Part shown: positions 11,419 through 44,735 of the stretch, one piece after another
Position numbering within the stretch: the first letter of the stretch is position 1
How the letters are laid out: the number at the start of each line of letters is the position of its first letter
NCBI RefSeq assembly: GCF_000427685.1
Contig: NZ_KE386573.1
Location: 2,836,938-2,900,937 of the forward strand
Source of the DNA: Haloplanus natans DSM 17983
GTDB taxonomy: Archaea; Halobacteriota; Halobacteria; Halobacteriales; Haloferacaceae
DNA length: 64,000 bases
Direction: 5' to 3'
The notes under the pieces: generated by a model
The model's database searches: none
What the model was told of the DNA's origin: nothing
The model's input: only the letters and a program-made list of their open reading frames with translations
Made by a program: the position numbers and the translations under genes

Positions 11419-13020
11419 ATGGTAGGCGGTCTGCTCGTCGGGGTCGGAAACGGCCTCGTCCCGCTGATCGTCCAGGATCTGATCGCCGGGTTCGGGAACG
11501 TCCTCACACCGTTCAACATGTTCCTGTTTTTGGTCGGGATCACGCTGGGCATGATGAGCGGCGCGATTCCGGGCCTGAACGGCACGATGACCGTCGTCCT
11601 GATGGTCCCCATCACGTACGCGATGGCGCCGGACTCGGGCATCATGATGCTCGCGGTTATCTACGCGGCGGCGGTGTACGCGGGGTCGATCAGCGCCATC
11701 CTGTTCAAGGTTCCCGGCGCACCGGAAGCGATCATGACGACCCTCGATGGCTACCCGATGAACCAGAACGGGCAGTTGCGGGAAGCGATCAGTACGGCGG
11801 TGTTCGCCTCGGCCTTTGGCGGCATCGTCGGCACGCTCATCCTGATTTTCTTCTCGCCCGTCCTCGCCGAGTTCGCGATCCAACTCTCCGATCCCGAGTT
11901 CTTCGCGGTCATCCTGCTGGGCCTCGCGCTCGTCTCGACCATCGGCGCGGGCAACATCACGAAGGCGACGATGATGATGTGTTTCGGCCTCTTTCTCGGC
12001 GTGTTCGGGTTCGACCCCCTCACGGGTGTCCCCCGGTTCACGTTCGACAGTAACTACCTCGCCAGCGGGATCGACTTCATCCCCGTCATCCTCGGCGTGT
12101 TCGCGTTCTCCGAGGTGCTGAAACAGATCCAGAGCGGCGGGAACCTGATCGGTGGCGGCGGCGAGGGCGGCGGCTCCGATTTCAGCCAGGCCACGTCCGG
12201 CTCGATGTTTCCCCCGCTCAGCTACTTCAAGCGCTTCGGTCGTATCCTCGGTGTCAACTCAGTGATGGGGACTATCATCGGCGTCCTGCCCGGCGCGGGC
12301 GCGACGACGGGCGCGCTGTTCGGATACACCTTCGGTCAGCGGCTGGTGCCCAAAAACGTCCGCGAAAAGTTCGGTACCGGCGTCCCCGAGGGCGTCGCCG
12401 CCCCGGAGACGGCGAACAACGCCGCCGCGAGCGGGGCGTTCGTCCCGCTCCTGACGCTCGGCATCCCCGGCAGCGCGACCACCGCAGTCATCCTCGCGGC
12501 CTTTATTCTGCACGGCATCCGGCCCGGTCCCTCGCTGATCGAGCAGCAGGGGCCGCTGGTGTACACCATCTTCGCCGCGCTCCTGCTGGCGAACGTGGCG
12601 ATTCTCCTGTTGAACAAGCCGGTCGTCAAGCTGTTCTTGCAGGTGCGGCACATCCCGCGGGAGCTGTTGTTATCGCTCATCGTCATCTTCACCGTGGTGG
12701 GGGCGTTCGCTACCCGGAACATCATGGCCGACCTGTGGACGATGTTCCTCTTCGGCGTCGCCGCCTACTACCTGGAGAAGTACAACTACTCCGTGGCACC
12801 CATGGTCATCGGCCTGGTACTGGGACCGCTGGCCGAACCCAGCTTACGCCGCAGCCTCACCAAGGCCGGTGGCGACTGGATGGTGTTCTTCCAGCGGCCG
12901 GTGTCGGCCCTGATGATCATCCTCGCGGTGTTCACGTTCTTTATCCCACTGATTATGGACAGCACACAGTTCGGTGATCGAATCCGCGAACAGCTCGGCC
13001 TAACGGAGATGGAACAATGA
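11419..13020 (+). CDS. tctA: Tripartite tricarboxylate transporter large permease TctA
   Basis: A 533-residue polytopic permease with about 11-12 hydrophobic helices, the transport subunit that uses an ion gradient. Family hallmarks are GMMSGAIPGLNGTMTVVLM near residue 35, the duplicated pore motif GIPGSATTAVILAAF near 350, and the GIRPGP loop. A central hydrophilic Gly-rich loop (residues 235-255) is typical of haloarchaeal versions. It starts 187 nt after tctC and overlaps tctB by 4 nt (ATGA), indicating translational coupling. Confidence 0.94.
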   Translation: MVGGLLVGVGNGLVPLIVQDLIAGFGNVLTPFNMFLFLVGITLGMMSGAIPGLNGTMTVVLMVPITYAMAPDSGIMMLAVIYAAAVYAGSISAILFKVPGAPEAIMTTLDGYPMNQNGQLREAISTAVFASAFGGIVGTLILIFFSPVLAEFAIQLSDPEFFAVILLGLALVSTIGAGNITKATMMMCFGLFLGVFGFDPLTGVPRFTFDSNYLASGIDFIPVILGVFAFSEVLKQIQSGGNLIGGGGEGGGSDFSQATSGSMFPPLSYFKRFGRILGVNSVMGTIIGVLPGAGATTGALFGYTFGQRLVPKNVREKFGTGVPEGVAAPETANNAAASGAFVPLLTLGIPGSATTAVILAAFILHGIRPGPSLIEQQGPLVYTIFAALLLANVAILLLNKPVVKLFLQVRHIPRELLLSLIVIFTVVGAFATRNIMADLWTMFLFGVAAYYLEKYNYSVAPMVIGLVLGPLAEPSLRRSLTKAGGDWMVFFQRPVSALMIILAVFTFFIPLIMDSTQFGDRIREQLGLTEMEQ

Positions 13021-13586
13021 GCGAGAAAGAGAGCAGCATCGAGACGCTTCGCGAACAGGCACCGCCGAGTGTCTCCCGGGACATCGGCATCACGGTGTTG
13101 TTCCTCCTCTTCGCCGTGGTGTTTCTCGTCCTCTCGGAGCAGTTCGCGGGCAACCGCATCTCGCAGTACGATCCCGGCTCGTCCCTCTGGCCGCGCGCGG
13201 CGCTGCTCGTCATCGTCGCCGCCGGCCTGTTGAACCTCCTCTTGCTCTACAAACGGGCACAGAAGAGCGGCGAGTCCGTCATCCCCTCGTTCTCCAGCGA
13301 AGTGAGGACTCTCACGAGGAAACAGCGGGAGTACATCCTCGCCATCGCGCTCTCCGTCGTGTTCTTCCTCTCGCAGAACTACATCGGCTTTTTTGTCTCG
13401 GCGCCGGTCTTCCTGTTCGCGTTCTCCTACGCCATCGGCTACCGCAACCTTCTGAAGCTGACGGTGTTCAGCCTCGTGACCGGACTCGTCGTCTTCTTCC
13501 TCTTCCGGAACGTGGTGAACATCGCACTCCCGTACGGTACGGGACCGTTCCGCGAGATCAGCATCTGGGCCGCGAACCTGTTCTGA
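13017..13586 (+). CDS. tctB: Tripartite tricarboxylate transporter small permease TctB
   Basis: A 189-residue membrane protein with four helices: about 25-45, 60-80, 108-128 and a long pair at 133-170. This matches the TctB small subunit that completes the TTT complex with TctA and TctC. It overlaps the tctA stop by 4 nt. In bacteria tctB usually precedes tctA; here it follows, an order also seen in other prokaryotes. The gene ends 58 nt before an 82-bp nested palindrome that separates it from the convergent CoA-transferase gene. Confidence 0.88.
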   Translation: MSEKESSIETLREQAPPSVSRDIGITVLFLLFAVVFLVLSEQFAGNRISQYDPGSSLWPRAALLVIVAAGLLNLLLLYKRAQKSGESVIPSFSSEVRTLTRKQREYILAIALSVVFFLSQNYIGFFVSAPVFLFAFSYAIGYRNLLKLTVFSLVTGLVVFFLFRNVVNIALPYGTGPFREISIWAANLF

Positions 13587-13643
13587 TTCGCGGCCGCGGT
13601 TTCGGTTTCGTCACGGTGACAGTGGCGCCTCGGCACCGGGCTC

Positions 13644-13725
13644 ATAGTGATTATTGTAAGTCAGTACCGGTGGTTCGCTGACCCGTTCTGGCGAACCACC
13701 GGTAAACAGTTACAATAATCACTAT
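13644..13725. repeat. 82-bp nested palindromic element, copy 1
   Basis: Two nested perfect stems. The outer arms are ATAGTGATTATTGTAA (13644-13659) and its complement at 13710-13725. The inner arms are CCGGTGGTTCGC (13667-13678) and 13691-13702. A 7/7-nt internal loop (GTCAGTA opposite TAAACAG) separates them and a 12-nt apical loop closes the structure. It lies between convergent tctB and a CoA-transferase gene, whose TAG stop is inside the right arm (13722-13724). A second copy of identical length is at 42968-43049. Possible roles are a bidirectional terminator, an mRNA 3'-end protector or a protein-binding site. Confidence 0.9.
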
Positions 13726-14912
13726 CGGTCGTCGCCGAAGGCGCCGCCCTCACGCCACGCCTCGACTTGCTCCTCGTCGGCGACGGCGCCGAAGACTTCG
13801 TCGACATCGTCGCCGAGTCGCGGCGCCGGCGACCGGATCGACGTGTCGTGGTCGGGGAAGTGGATCGGATGCCCGGGCATGAGACACTCGCCCCAGTCGG
13901 GGTCGTCGTGTTCCTCGACGAGTCCGCGCGCCTCGCTCTGTTCGTTCTCGACGACGTCCTCGACGTTGTTCATCGGGCCGTTGGGGAAGCCGTACTCGGT
14001 GAGTCGATCGAGCCAGTAGTCGGTCGTCTCCGCGCGGAACTCCTCTTGGATGATGGAGACGACGGTCTCTTGCTGTTCGACGCGGTCGGCGTTGGTCGGG
14101 TAGTCGGCGAGTTCCTCGCGCCCGATCGCCTCGACGAAGTCGCCCCAGCGCTCGTCGCTCCCGACGCCGGTCACGATGTGGCTGTCCTTCGTCTCGAATA
14201 GCTGGTACGGCACGGAGGTCTGGTGACTCGTGCCCTGGGGACCCGGCACGTCGCCGGTCATCGAGTAGTTGGTGATGTACTCGTTGAGGAACGACACCAC
14301 GGCGTCGTACAGTCCAACGTCGAACTCGCCGCCCTCGCCGGTTCGCTCGCGCTCGTAGAGGCGCGCGAGGATGCCGATGGTGGTGAGTAGGCCGGTGTTG
14401 AGGTCGCCGAGTGCCTGTCCCACCTTCACGGGGTCGCCGCCCTCGGGACCCGTGACGCTCATGATGCCGCCCTCGGCCTGGAGGATCAGATCGAGCCCTT
14501 TCTTCTCTTTCAGCGGGCCGGTCTTCCCGTAGCCCTTGATGCTGGCGTAGATGATGTCGTCGTTGACCGCGCGCACGTCCTCGTACCCGACCCCGAGTCG
14601 CTCGGGGACGCCCAGCGAGAAGTTCTCGATGAACACGTCGGCGTCGGCGAGGAGTTCGAGCACCGCCTCCTGCCCAGCCTCGGATTTCAGGTCGAGCGTG
14701 ACCGACTTCTTGTTACGGTTGTTCACCATGAAGTACGCGGACTTCCCGTCGGGGCCGACGCCCTGACTGCGCGCCGGGTCGCCGACACCCGGCCGCTCCA
14801 CTTTGATCACGTCGGCGCCCATGTCGGCGAGGAGGGCGCCACAGAACGGCGCCGCCCGGTGGACGGTGAGTTCGACGACGGTCAGATCGGACAGTGGACC
14901 AGTGCCTCTCAT
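13722..14912 (-). CDS. CaiB/BaiF class III CoA-transferase (copy 1)
   Basis: A 396-residue family III CoA-transferase, which moves CoA between carboxylic acids through aspartyl anhydride intermediates. Visible features are the N-terminal Rossmann part (LLADMGADVIKVERPG, residues 28-42), NNRNKKSVTLDL at 64-75, and the likely catalytic Asp170 in QALGDLNTG. The start at 14912 (MRGTGPLSDLTVVEL) is the family N-terminus and lies just after a TATA box and palindrome. It is divergent from a sugar-phosphate-isomerase-like gene. The paralogue at 21433 in the same cluster suggests a pathway using one or two acyl-CoA activations; the acid is unknown. Confidence 0.9.
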   Translation of the reverse strand: MRGTGPLSDLTVVELTVHRAAPFCGALLADMGADVIKVERPGVGDPARSQGVGPDGKSAYFMVNNRNKKSVTLDLKSEAGQEAVLELLADADVFIENFSLGVPERLGVGYEDVRAVNDDIIYASIKGYGKTGPLKEKKGLDLILQAEGGIMSVTGPEGGDPVKVGQALGDLNTGLLTTIGILARLYERERTGEGGEFDVGLYDAVVSFLNEYITNYSMTGDVPGPQGTSHQTSVPYQLFETKDSHIVTGVGSDERWGDFVEAIGREELADYPTNADRVEQQETVVSIIQEEFRAETTDYWLDRLTEYGFPNGPMNNVEDVVENEQSEARGLVEEHDDPDWGECLMPGHPIHFPDHDTSIRSPAPRLGDDVDEVFGAVADEEQVEAWREGGAFGDDR

Positions 14913-14924
14913 ACCCCCCGTTCC

Positions 14925-14941
14925 ATCACTGTAGTGATAAA
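14925..14941 (-). promoter_or_regulatory. TATA box overlapped by a palindromic operator
   Basis: On the minus strand TTTATCAC (14934-14941) is the likely TATA box of the CoA-transferase gene starting at 14912. The perfect palindrome ATCACTGTAGTGAT (14925-14938) overlaps it on the downstream side. A protein bound there should block TBP/TFB or the polymerase. The divergent isomerase gene has a TTTATAT box about 60 nt away, so one regulator could act on both. Confidence 0.5.
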
Positions 14942-15036
14942 CACTTCCAGACCCTCGGTGAAGCTTCCAATCGACCGACATTGGCGGGTCGTGTGGCTTT
15001 ATATCTGTCTGCATCCAACCCGGGAAAGATACCCAT

Positions 15037-15858
15037 ATGAGCCTCAGAGAGCGGATCGGCGTCGACACCGGACAGCGACTGAGCATCGCGGCGGCCGTCG
15101 AGTGGGCGGCCGACAACGACGTTCACTACGTCGACGTCTGTCTCGACGGGACGCCAATCGACCCCGACGGCTACGACGACGAGGTGGCGTCGATCCGGGC
15201 GACCTGCGCGGAAAACGACGTGAGCCTCGGCCTCCACACGCTGTCGGCGGTGAACGTCGCCGAAACGTCGGCACACATCGCCGACGCCGTCGATGACTAC
15301 CTGCGTGCGTACGTCGACATCGGCGACCTGGTCGGGGCGGACCGGATCATCGTCCACGGCGGCTACCACTTCACCGACGACCGCGAGGACCGAGTCGCGG
15401 CGAGCAAGGCCCGCCTCCGCCGGGCCATCGAGTACGCCGCGGACGCCCACCCCGACCTCCTCCTCGAGAACCACAACGTCGAACCCGACACCTCCGAGAT
15501 GCATTACGTCCCCGTCACCCTCGAGGAGGTGACCGACTACTTCGACGCTCTCGCGGCCCCGAATCTGGGCTGGGCGTTCAATCCACCCCACGCTCGCCAG
15601 TTCCCGGCGGACATCGAGGGCTACTTCGAGGCGCTGGGGCCGGACATCTGTGGCGAAGTCCGCCTCAACGACAACGACGGAGAGATAGAGGAACATCTCG
15701 CCCCCGGCGAGGGCACCCTCGATTTCGACGCGATGTTCCAACTGATCGAGAGCAGCGGCTACGACGGCCACTACATGCTCGCGTTCGGCACGCTGGAGGA
15801 TATGCTCGACGGGCGGGAGTACTTGCTGGAGCGGTATTCGGGGCTTCCGAGCGCTTGA
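15037..15858 (+). CDS. Sugar-phosphate isomerase/epimerase family TIM-barrel protein
   Basis: A 273-residue member of the xylose-isomerase-like TIM-barrel (AP-endonuclease 2) superfamily. Acidic and His metal-site candidates appear in LGLHTLSAV near residue 65, IIVHGGYHF near 105, DLLLENHNVEP near 142 and DICGEVRLNDNDG near 205, the pattern that binds a divalent metal. Members isomerise hydroxypyruvate, epimerise keto-sugars or dehydrate inositol derivatives; the sequence does not tell which. Its place beside CoA-transferase and hydroxyacid dehydrogenase genes suggests a hydroxy- or keto-acid substrate. A TTTATAT box lies 33-39 nt upstream. Confidence 0.8.
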   Translation: MSLRERIGVDTGQRLSIAAAVEWAADNDVHYVDVCLDGTPIDPDGYDDEVASIRATCAENDVSLGLHTLSAVNVAETSAHIADAVDDYLRAYVDIGDLVGADRIIVHGGYHFTDDREDRVAASKARLRRAIEYAADAHPDLLLENHNVEPDTSEMHYVPVTLEEVTDYFDALAAPNLGWAFNPPHARQFPADIEGYFEALGPDICGEVRLNDNDGEIEEHLAPGEGTLDFDAMFQLIESSGYDGHYMLAFGTLEDMLDGREYLLERYSGLPSA

Positions 15859-42185: not shown

Positions 42186-42968
42186 ATGAGTTACATTCTC
42201 GACCACACGATGATGCGGGTGGGCGACCTAGAGGCGTCGCTCGACTGGTACCGGACACATCTGGCGTACGAGGAGAAAGACCGCTTCGAGGGGGACGGGT
42301 TCACCATCGTCTACCTCGGGCCGGAGGGTATGCACGAGGACGGGGCGATGCTCGAACTCACGCACAACGAGGGCGAGACGCCCAAGTTCGGCGACGCGTG
42401 GGGACACATCGCGGTGCGCGTCGAGGACGTCTACGAGGCCTACGAGGAACTGATGGACGGGGGCGTCGAGGACTACCGCGACCCCGACTCCTGTGGCGGG
42501 GGGTACGCGTTCGTGAAAGATCCCGACGGACACGAGGTGGAGTTGGTCGAACGCGACCACGGCGCACGGTGGAGCCTCGATCACACGATGATCCGCGTCG
42601 AGGACGCCGACGCGGCGATCGGTTTCTGGGGTCGGAAGTTCGAGTACGAAGGGACCGGGCGCTGGGAGGCCGACACCTTCGCCAACTACTTCATGAAGCC
42701 CGCGGGGGCCCCCGAAGAGGCGATGGCGGTCGAACTCACCTACAACTACGACGGGCGCACGTACGAACACGGCGACGCGTGGGGACATCTCTGTGTCCGG
42801 GTCGACGACCTCCACGACGACTGGGAGACGCTGTTGAAACGCGAAGCGCCGGACTACCGCGATCCGGCCTCGTGTGACGATATGTACGCGTTCACGAAAG
42901 ACGGCGACGAACACGAGATCGAACTCATAGAGCGCGACGGGATCGACGGCGACCTCTTCCCGTTCTGA
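42186..42968 (+). CDS. Two-domain glyoxalase/VOC protein
   Basis: A 260-residue tandem of two vicinal-oxygen-chelate domains, residues 1-125 and 130-255. Each begins with LDHTMMRV or LDHTMIRV (metal His) and ends with PDGHEVELVERD or GDEHEIELIERD (metal Glu); the middle has MLELTHN and AVELTYNYD. This matches lactoylglutathione-lyase-like proteins that isomerise the methylglyoxal-thiol hemithioacetal. Haloarchaea lack glutathione, so the thiol is probably gamma-glutamylcysteine. Its TGA stop is the first base pair of the second 82-bp palindrome. Confidence 0.88.
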   Translation: MSYILDHTMMRVGDLEASLDWYRTHLAYEEKDRFEGDGFTIVYLGPEGMHEDGAMLELTHNEGETPKFGDAWGHIAVRVEDVYEAYEELMDGGVEDYRDPDSCGGGYAFVKDPDGHEVELVERDHGARWSLDHTMIRVEDADAAIGFWGRKFEYEGTGRWEADTFANYFMKPAGAPEEAMAVELTYNYDGRTYEHGDAWGHLCVRVDDLHDDWETLLKREAPDYRDPASCDDMYAFTKDGDEHEIELIERDGIDGDLFPF

Positions 42969-43049
42969 TACGGTTTATTGTAAGTCATTGCCGGTGGTTC
43001 GCCGGGCCGTCCCGGCGAACCACCGGTAAACAGTTACAATAATCCGTAT
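42968..43049. repeat. 82-bp nested palindromic element, copy 2
   Basis: Same length and plan as the copy at 13644-13725. Outer arms 42968-42983 and 43034-43049 pair with one mismatch (ATACGG... with ...CCGTAT). The inner stem is 16 bp, CCGGTGGTTCGCCGGG at 42991-43006 with 43011-43026, closed by a CCGT loop. The 7-nt internal-loop strand TAAACAG is identical in both copies. It overlaps the stop of the VOC gene by one base and lies 47 bp from the stop of the convergent Lrp gene. Confidence 0.9.
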
Positions 43050-43096
43050 GAGCCACGGCGGCGCCACACGGCGATCGGCCGGGTCCGACACCTCGG

Positions 43097-43585
43097 CTAC
43101 CGAAATCCGGAAGAGCTCCGTCGGCCTGCGTCCTCCTCTGTCCATCGGTCGTGGACGCTCGGGGTGCGACCCGTGTTGGTGACGATCTTTATTCGGATGT
43201 CGCGTAGTCGCTCGCTACCGAGGGTTTCGGCGATCCACTTGTGTGGAGTGTCCCGCGGGAGTTTGCCGAACACGTACAGCGAGGAGTCGGCGGAGACGAA
43301 ATACTGGTCGACGTTCTCGCTCGTCTCCAGTGCCGCCTGGAGTTCGGCGACACGGTTCGGAACGGCGTCGAGAATCATCAGTACGTTCGTTCCCCCGCCG
43401 ACCAGTTCGTAGTCGATGTCGATGGTGAACCGGCGGATAACCCCCTGCTCTTTGAGCCGGTTGATGCGATCCGAGACGGCTGGGGGGGAGAGATCGACCG
43501 CCGACGAGATTTCGTTGTACGTGCGGCGTGCATCTTCCGACAGTAGTTGGAGGATGATGACATCGGTTTCGTCCAGTTCTTGCAT
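43097..43585 (-). CDS. Lrp/AsnC-family transcriptional regulator
   Basis: A 162-residue regulator. The N-terminal winged HTH is residues 3-60 (LDETDVIILQLLSEDARRTY, ISSAVDLSPPAVSDRINRL). The C-terminal RAM-like effector domain covers 65-145. The tail EEDAGRRSSSGFR is extra. Members bind amino acids or small metabolites and act as dimers or octamers. It is followed upstream by a UspA gene on the same strand, 24 nt away, so the two form a probable stress-related pair. Its target genes are not visible. Confidence 0.9.
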   Translation of the reverse strand: MQELDETDVIILQLLSEDARRTYNEISSAVDLSPPAVSDRINRLKEQGVIRRFTIDIDYELVGGGTNVLMILDAVPNRVAELQAALETSENVDQYFVSADSSLYVFGKLPRDTPHKWIAETLGSERLRDIRIKIVTNTGRTPSVHDRWTEEDAGRRSSSGFR

Positions 43586-43609: not shown

Positions 43610-44029
43610 TTACCGGCTCTCCGAGGCTCCGCCGGTCACCGTCACCGGCAGATCCGTGTTGAGGATGACACCCTGCGTGACGCTTCCGAACAGCGCCTTG
43701 CCCGCGGGGGAGCGCTTGCGTCCACCGAGAACGATGTGGTCGACGTTGGCTCGCTCCGCCAGATCCACGATGCCTTCCTCGGGCGGGGAGTGCGCACTCC
43801 GGACGGTGACCGAGAACCCCTCGTCGTCCAACCGCTCCCGTGCCTCCTTGACGAGGGCGACCCGTTCCGGGCGTTGCATCTCCTTCGGTGCTCGTTCCTC
43901 CTCGCCCGTCAGGACGTGTGTGAGCACGACTTCAACCTCGTCCCTGTCGACGGGGAGGTCGATCAGCGCGGATATCTGCGTTCGTTCACGCTCTCTACTG
44001 CTGTCGAGTGGTACGAGCACCGTGTACAT
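43610..44029 (-). CDS. Universal stress protein UspA family
   Basis: A 139-residue UspA protein. It starts MYTVLVPLDSSRERERTQ and ends with the nucleotide-binding signature VLGGRKRSPAGKALFGSVTQ (residues 106-125), nearly identical to that of the UspA at 19020. Start 44029 is chosen because further upstream sequence belongs to the region invaded by the IS6-type element. It is co-directional with the Lrp gene 24 nt downstream. Confidence 0.9.
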   Translation of the reverse strand: MYTVLVPLDSSRERERTQISALIDLPVDRDEVEVVLTHVLTGEEERAPKEMQRPERVALVKEARERLDDEGFSVTVRSAHSPPEEGIVDLAERANVDHIVLGGRKRSPAGKALFGSVTQGVILNTDLPVTVTGGASESR

Positions 44030-44096
44030 ACCCGCAACTGCTTGGTCGCGTAAAGTTGAGCGTAGAGAGTGGGGCGTGCTGATTTCTAAGTTGTCC

Positions 44097-44735
44097 ATGC
44101 ACGAAATCACACGCCTCAGCGACGGTAGCGACTGGATCGAATTAGAGTTTGTGAAGCGTCAGCTGACACCCGAGTTCGCGATCCGGCTCGGTATTCGGAT
44201 GCACGTGGCAGGACTATCACTTTCGAATACTACCTCGATTCTTGAAAGGTTGGGTGTCGAACGCTCTCGAGCGGCCGTCCACAGCCGGGTGCAGAAGGCC
44301 GACCTACAGCCCGAAGGCGGTGCGAGTCCGGATCACGTTGCACTCGACGAAACCGTGATTCGAATCAACGGACAGCAGTATTGGCTGTATGCTGCCGTCG
44401 ATCCTGAAACGAACGCATTCCTTCATATCCGGCTTCTTAGCACGTATACGACCGTCCTAACCGAAATCTTCCCGAGTGAATTACGCGAGAAACACGATGT
44501 CGAAACCACCGTGTTTCTCGTCGACGATGCTCAGTGGCTCCAAACTGCCCTCGACCGACACGGCCTCGATTGCAGACACGAATTCCATGGCAATCGGAAT
44601 ACCGCCGAACGTATATTTAGAGAAGTGAAAGGCCAAACAGTTTTGTTTTCAAATACGTTCAACCACGTAGAGCCGACGACCGTAGAAACGTGGCTTCAAG
44701 CCCTTGCCGTCTGGTAGAATCGATGCCAAGGTTAA
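44097..44735 (+). mobile_element. IS6-family transposase with early stop
   Basis: DDE transposase of the haloarchaeal IS6 type. The 206-residue product (44097-44717) has the N-terminal HTH (IRMHVAGLSLSNTTSILERL), the first Asp in HVALDETVIRING, the second in TVFLVDDAQWLQ and the Glu in NRNTAERIFREVKG. It stops at TAG after VETWLQALAVW. In the same frame five more codons (NRCQG) and TAA follow at 44718-44735, which look like the normal family ending. The stop is thus probably a late nonsense mutation. No terminal inverted repeats were found at either side, so the element is likely degenerate. An IclR gene fragment abuts its right end. Confidence 0.8.

Follow-up and report, generated by a model that had tools for sequence, protein, structure and literature searches.

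Small mobile repeats (SMRs) of the haloarchaeon Haloquadratum walsbyi fall into SMR-A, of about 110 bp, and SMR-B, which includes the 80-bp HqIRS41, and their mobilisation has been called enigmatic (PMC3119063). The family of palindromes described here resembles SMRs in being haloarchaeal, 80-110 bp long, bounded by terminal inverted repeats and present in high copy number, in its strong target preference, and in that no transposase with matching ends is known. SMRs are described as making no target duplication and as inserting in other mobile elements, notably in IS605-type palindromes (PMC3119063), whereas the element described here duplicates a TNA triplet and is found at gene stops. By description rather than by sequence, SMRs are the closest described kind. 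Prokaryotic MITEs are non-autonomous, multicopy elements with terminal inverted repeats, target duplications and empty sites (PMC10969869), and our element shares these properties, being 80 bp long without a transposase gene, with terminal inverted repeats, a duplicated target and empty sites. It differs from MITEs in that no parent insertion sequence sharing its ends was found, and in its almost fully palindromic body with a covarying inner stem; placement at stop codons, seen here, was absent from the MITE review when that text was searched by term (PMC10969869). REP and BIME sequences, which are associated with RAYT transposases, are likewise short extragenic palindromes found in high copy number at gene ends (PMC2817692). 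The present element is longer, carries a target duplication and is so far linked to no Y1-type enzyme. A literature search by core sequence, stop-codon insertion and related topics returned no description of the element.

We consider it very probable that the two palindromes which drew attention to this locus are copies of a non-autonomous, MITE- or SMR-like haloarchaeal mobile element which inserts at GWC-TNA-GWC targets and persists where the adjacent gene has been spared.

Two palindromes and their flanking genes

The window analysed is a stretch of 64 kb from Haloplanus natans DSM 17983. It contains two 82-base palindromes exactly where the original prediction had placed them (13644-13725 and 42968-43049), and these are its two highest-ranking short-range inverted repeats. 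The predicted structure was also recovered: the outer arms pair at 16 of 16 positions in copy 1 and at 15 of 16 in copy 2, the core CCGGTGGTTCGC and the TAAACAG strand are common to both, and the 12-nt apical loop of copy 1 is replaced by a CCGT loop in copy 2. Both fold more stably than shuffled sequences (z = -11.2 and -11.5, with 0 of 200 shuffles as good). What had been missed, besides the many further copies in the genome, is that the triplets immediately flanking each palindrome are direct repeats rather than stem, namely TCA/TCG at copy 1 (probably TCA/TCA formerly) and TGA/TGA at copy 2. This leaves a mobile body of 80 bp in each case (13645-13724 and 42969-43048). The features of the two loci are as follows.

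13017..13586, plus strand: TctB gene (PF07331), convergent neighbour of copy 1
13642..13644, no strand: TCA, the left-hand target duplication flanking copy 1 (from the sequence and from the TNA duplication across copies)
13645..13724, plus strand: copy 1, 80-bp palindromic element of the TAGTG-end subfamily, with the GTCA strand on the left
13725..13727, no strand: right-hand target duplication flanking copy 1, at present TCG (reverse strand GGC GAC GAC CGA TAG)
13722..15122, minus strand: CoA-transferase family III gene, open frame (PF02515, E = 3.7e-119; start at 15116 in the ORF list)
42186..42968, plus strand: glyoxalase/VOC family gene, of which the duplicated TGA is the last codon (PF00903, E = 2e-26)
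42966..42968, plus strand: TGA, the left-hand target duplication flanking copy 2, which is also where the glyoxalase-family gene stops
42969..43048, plus strand: copy 2, 80-bp palindromic element of the TACGG-end subfamily
43049..43051, no strand: right target duplication of copy 2, TGA (from the sequence)
43097..43585, minus strand: AsnC-type regulator gene (PF13404), convergent neighbour of copy 2

At copy 1, the present stop codon of the CoA-transferase gene (TAG, 13722-13724) falls inside the end of the element. Given the intact TCA on the left, we infer that 13725..13727 was also TCA before a mutation; on the minus strand this would have been the TGA stop of the gene, which is now read as CGA, so that the gene extends as far as the TAG in the element's tip. 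The glyoxalase gene at copy 2 has its nearest homologues in Haloferacaceae archaeon XH8 and in Haloplanus. A frame with a weak match to an IS6-type transposase (DDE_Tnp_IS240) lies at 44028-44717, about 1 kb from copy 2. Apart from one tRNA, an Rfam search of the window gave no match above the gathering score.

Copy number, target duplication and mobility

The end motif TNATASNGNTTANTGTAANT, with at most two mismatches, occurs 131 + 130 times in the genome, as compared with 1 + 0 occurrences of a reversed control. At two ends per element, these 261 ends correspond to about 130 copies in 3.8 Mb. We read 67 distinct copies, which are the best matches to the two window copies rather than a full census. 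All 67 share one layout, consisting of TNA, TA(S)(N)G....TGTAA, GTCA.., one stem arm (CCGGTGG..CGCC), the loop, the opposite stem arm, ..ACAG, TTACA....C(N)(S)TA and TNA. Nearly the whole of the 80-bp body is palindromic, the exception being a conserved asymmetric internal loop in which GTCA faces ACAG, and a 15-bp outer helix, with 88.2% of cells paired, forms the terminal inverted repeat.

The middle bases of the two flanking TNA triplets are identical in 61 of the 67 copies and complementary in one. Membership in the stem would make these bases complementary; we therefore rejected that interpretation and treat the triplets as a target duplication around an 80-bp body. The original prediction had itself named target duplications as a sign that its hairpin reading was wrong, and they are present. 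The duplication was found in 28 of 29 elements from other genomes and in 19 of 20 copies from genome G142, where all 20 span exactly 86 bp, although in each case a 3-bp TNA duplication could equally be a 1-bp (N) duplication within a TNA target, the two being indistinguishable. Insertion of the IS630 type, which duplicates TA, was rejected because it would not produce TNA...TNA.

Mobility is shown by three loci at which joined-flank searches followed by alignment identified empty sites in congeners (17 comparisons). The outer arms are missing from these sites as well, which rules out insertion into a pre-existing palindrome. Identical 80-bp bodies are found at different sites in the H. natans genome and also in G142, where five of the 20 copies have the same body; identity of bodies at different sites points to recent movement. 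One pair of copies, at G000:C7:2252885 and 2258968 (loci L038 and L037), lies 6 kb apart, is identical in both bodies and flanks, and is a segmental duplication, not two separate insertions. Worn older copies adjoin intact ones in the flanks at L037 and L066, so gene ends have been targets more than once. A hybrid copy (G000:C7:1708391-1708480, L295) combines a TACGG-type left end with a TAGTG-type right end between TCA/TCA duplications, and indicates that ends from different subfamilies can join in one element.

A covariance-model search of haloarchaeal genomes, as the original prediction had proposed, recovered relatives in 33 of 67 sampled genera and in 68 of 195 Halobacteriales genomes, often with at least 22 matches per genome. 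In G142 we counted 161 ends, against none in the control. An exact pattern gave no match among the contigs of other genomes because it had been fitted to the H. natans subfamily, and viral contigs and phages searched for the element gave no match either. Elements of a second size class, measuring 113-115 bp when both triplets are counted, occur in three metagenome-assembled haloarchaea (L162:1502-1615, L163:4230-4342, L127:3807-3921 and L127:4604-4718). Their terminal repeats, of 15-17 bp, resemble those of the 80-bp element in type, TGA is duplicated around them, and their interior is folded but not palindromic.

Insertion at gene stop codons

Among the 67 copies, 22 lie between convergent genes, 37 between tandem genes and eight between divergent genes, and none lies inside any predicted gene. 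The expected placement between convergent genes is therefore true of both window copies and does not extend to copies generally. By our own heuristic gene calls, 42 of the 67 copies have a duplicated triplet that serves as stop codon for the neighbouring gene (39 TGA and three TAA). Stop codons account for 179 of 1598 non-coding TNA sites (179:1419; odds ratio 13, P = 4e-22), and for 16 of 88 sites matched for target context (16:72; odds ratio 7.6, P = 2e-8); across backgrounds, their share of non-coding TNA sites ranges from 11 to 19%. For all 42 copies, the frame in which the duplicated triplet is a stop is also the best coding frame, and in 40 of them it is preceded by at least 100 open codons. 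The orientation of the element relative to the gene is random (22 sense, 20 antisense).

The same placement is seen elsewhere, with 19 of 29 elements in other genomes and seven of 20 copies in G142 (using a codon model trained elsewhere) on a stop codon. Independently annotated genes end exactly on the duplication in plasmid records of Halomontanus rarus, Halomicrobium mukohataei, Natrialba magadii, Natrinema thermotolerans and Natronorubrum daqingense; these five records, the only ones in which gene calls were not our own, have incomplete gene tables, and they confirm single cases but give no rate.

Insertion sites differ from other stop codons at C(-1), G(+1), A(+2) and C(+3), which implies a target motif of roughly GWC-TNA-GWC. 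This motif alone does not yield the observed stop bias, and a part of the mechanism is thus missing from it. One explanation, compatible with a mobile element, is that the enzyme is indifferent to stop codons and that insertions elsewhere have been lost, so that placement reflects survival. The absence of copies from predicted genes agrees with this, as does the fact that an insertion on a stop codon preserves the reading frame. Regions between convergent genes, however, which contain no promoter to be damaged, should tolerate insertion at other TNA sites equally well, yet 19 of the 22 copies in such regions are on stops (19:3, against 72:173 for the available sites), and a specific motif that sets the targets apart from other stops also argues against it. 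We regard survival as a possible explanation, although not the likelier one.

Within five codons past the duplicated triplet, a further in-frame stop is present at 120 of 122 H. natans ends and, across genera, at 54 of 58. In the other two frames the corresponding counts are 24 and 0 of the 122 H. natans ends, and none across genera. These additional stops may be a mere consequence of the conserved TGTAA motif; furthermore, exchanges among TAA, TAG and TGA are transitions and so do not amount to proof of selection for a stop.

Arm pairing and the route of movement

The search for further compensating changes, suggested on the basis of the first two copies, was successful: across genera, two-sided changes affect 18 of 30 base pairs and amount to 114 cells, as compared with 41 in shuffles. 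Within the H. natans genome, two-sided changes are concentrated in four of the 30 column pairs (9/84, 10/83, 16/77 and 36/57), which define the subfamilies, and recent changes are mostly one-sided. When copies are read in mRNA orientation, G-U (35) and A-C (34) mismatches are equally frequent, from which it follows that pairing is not visibly maintained in RNA once a copy has inserted. A better explanation is that the pairing belongs to moving lineages rather than to the host sites. Shared recognition of both ends would account for pairing of the outer 15 bp. For the inner stem, either a folded intermediate or correction of one arm by the other has to be assumed, and the persistent GTCA/ACAG mismatch argues against frequent correction of this kind.

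Imperfect palindromes are known to undergo template-switch correction during replication, and such correction could keep the arms complementary in a mobile element without selection on pairing. It would explain two-sided changes shared by whole subfamilies with no need for a function. It should also erase the internal loop, yet the mismatch remains in nearly all copies; nor would it be expected to leave recent changes mostly one-sided, two-sided cells clustered in four of 30 pairs, and the hybrid with TACGG and TAGTG ends uncorrected. We consider this explanation of the pairing unlikely.

Far less probable is a host regulatory hairpin or cruciform at gene ends (a terminator, an RNA-stability element or a protein-binding cruciform) whose pairing is selected site by site. 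The original prediction argued for selection on a hairpin as opposed to a transposon, and one half of that argument stands: changes between subfamilies and genera keep pairing. The strong fold and the placement at gene 3' ends also speak for a host hairpin. The contrast with a transposon does not hold, in view of the target duplications, the empty sites and the identical bodies. Against selection at each site are the parity of G-U and A-C mismatches, the accumulation of one-sided breaks, the random orientation and the congeners, in which none of the three orthologous sites examined is occupied; in addition, a bacterial-type scan for intrinsic terminators (a hairpin followed by a T-rich tract) identified none at copy 1. 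We therefore reject a host terminator or RNA element as the main explanation, and regard use as a terminator at some sites as a possible secondary role.

Transposition through single-stranded DNA, with an IS200/IS605-like (RAYT) enzyme, would suit a short, palindromic, extragenic element with a conserved bulge and high copy number, but such chemistry leaves no target duplication whereas TNA is duplicated here, and REP units are shorter and carry a GTAG-type tag, which makes this the least probable of the alternatives.

A mobile element of the MITE or SMR kind would need an enzyme from elsewhere. Neither the H. natans genome nor the G142 loci yielded an autonomous element or a transposase with these ends, and no longer element was seen at the latter; solo ends read in the H. 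natans genome are worn miniature copies. The IS1031 group of the IS5 family makes a 3-bp TNA target duplication, as our element does. It differs in that our searches gave no transposase of this type with matching ends: DDE_Tnp_4 (PF13359) is absent from all 11 genomes searched, and DDE_Tnp_1 (PF01609) is absent from genome G169 despite 17 element matches there. A search for ISAzo13, the third transposase family covered, gave no match, in a search run with no positive control. A DDE-type enzyme acting in trans would be the simplest reading of the fixed 3-bp duplication.

We propose that an enzyme supplied in trans would recognise the 15-bp terminal repeat, TA(S)(N)G....TGTAA, and cut a TNA target in the preferred GWC-TNA-GWC context, with insertion duplicating the TNA. 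Insertions are mostly found at the TNA of a stop codon, usually TGA, where the duplication retains the stop and the end of the element supplies a second one in frame, either TAG at codon 1 or TAA, TAG or TGA by codon 5. Complementarity of the arms would be maintained in moving lineages, in which both ends must suit the same enzyme; a folded or cruciform form probably matters for movement, and the hairpin would have no host function at individual sites. A more specific and quite tentative version, which we think doubtful as it stands, is that of an order-wide mini-element homing to stop codons, whose hairpin is read by a host-encoded enzyme that belongs to no insertion sequence sharing those ends, and which is adapted to this niche by re-creating the stop and carrying a backup in-frame stop at each end.

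Mobile DNA whose insertions fall mostly on stop codons, with duplication of the stop, would represent an unusually clean form of harmless targeting in compact genomes. The present element is widespread in haloarchaea, recently active and, as far as the literature searched is concerned, apparently undescribed. It raises two testable questions: which enzyme moves haloarchaeal repeats that lack a transposase, and how the integration reaction favours the end of a reading frame. As its copies have altered the 3' ends of many genes, the element belongs in the annotation of haloarchaeal genomes.
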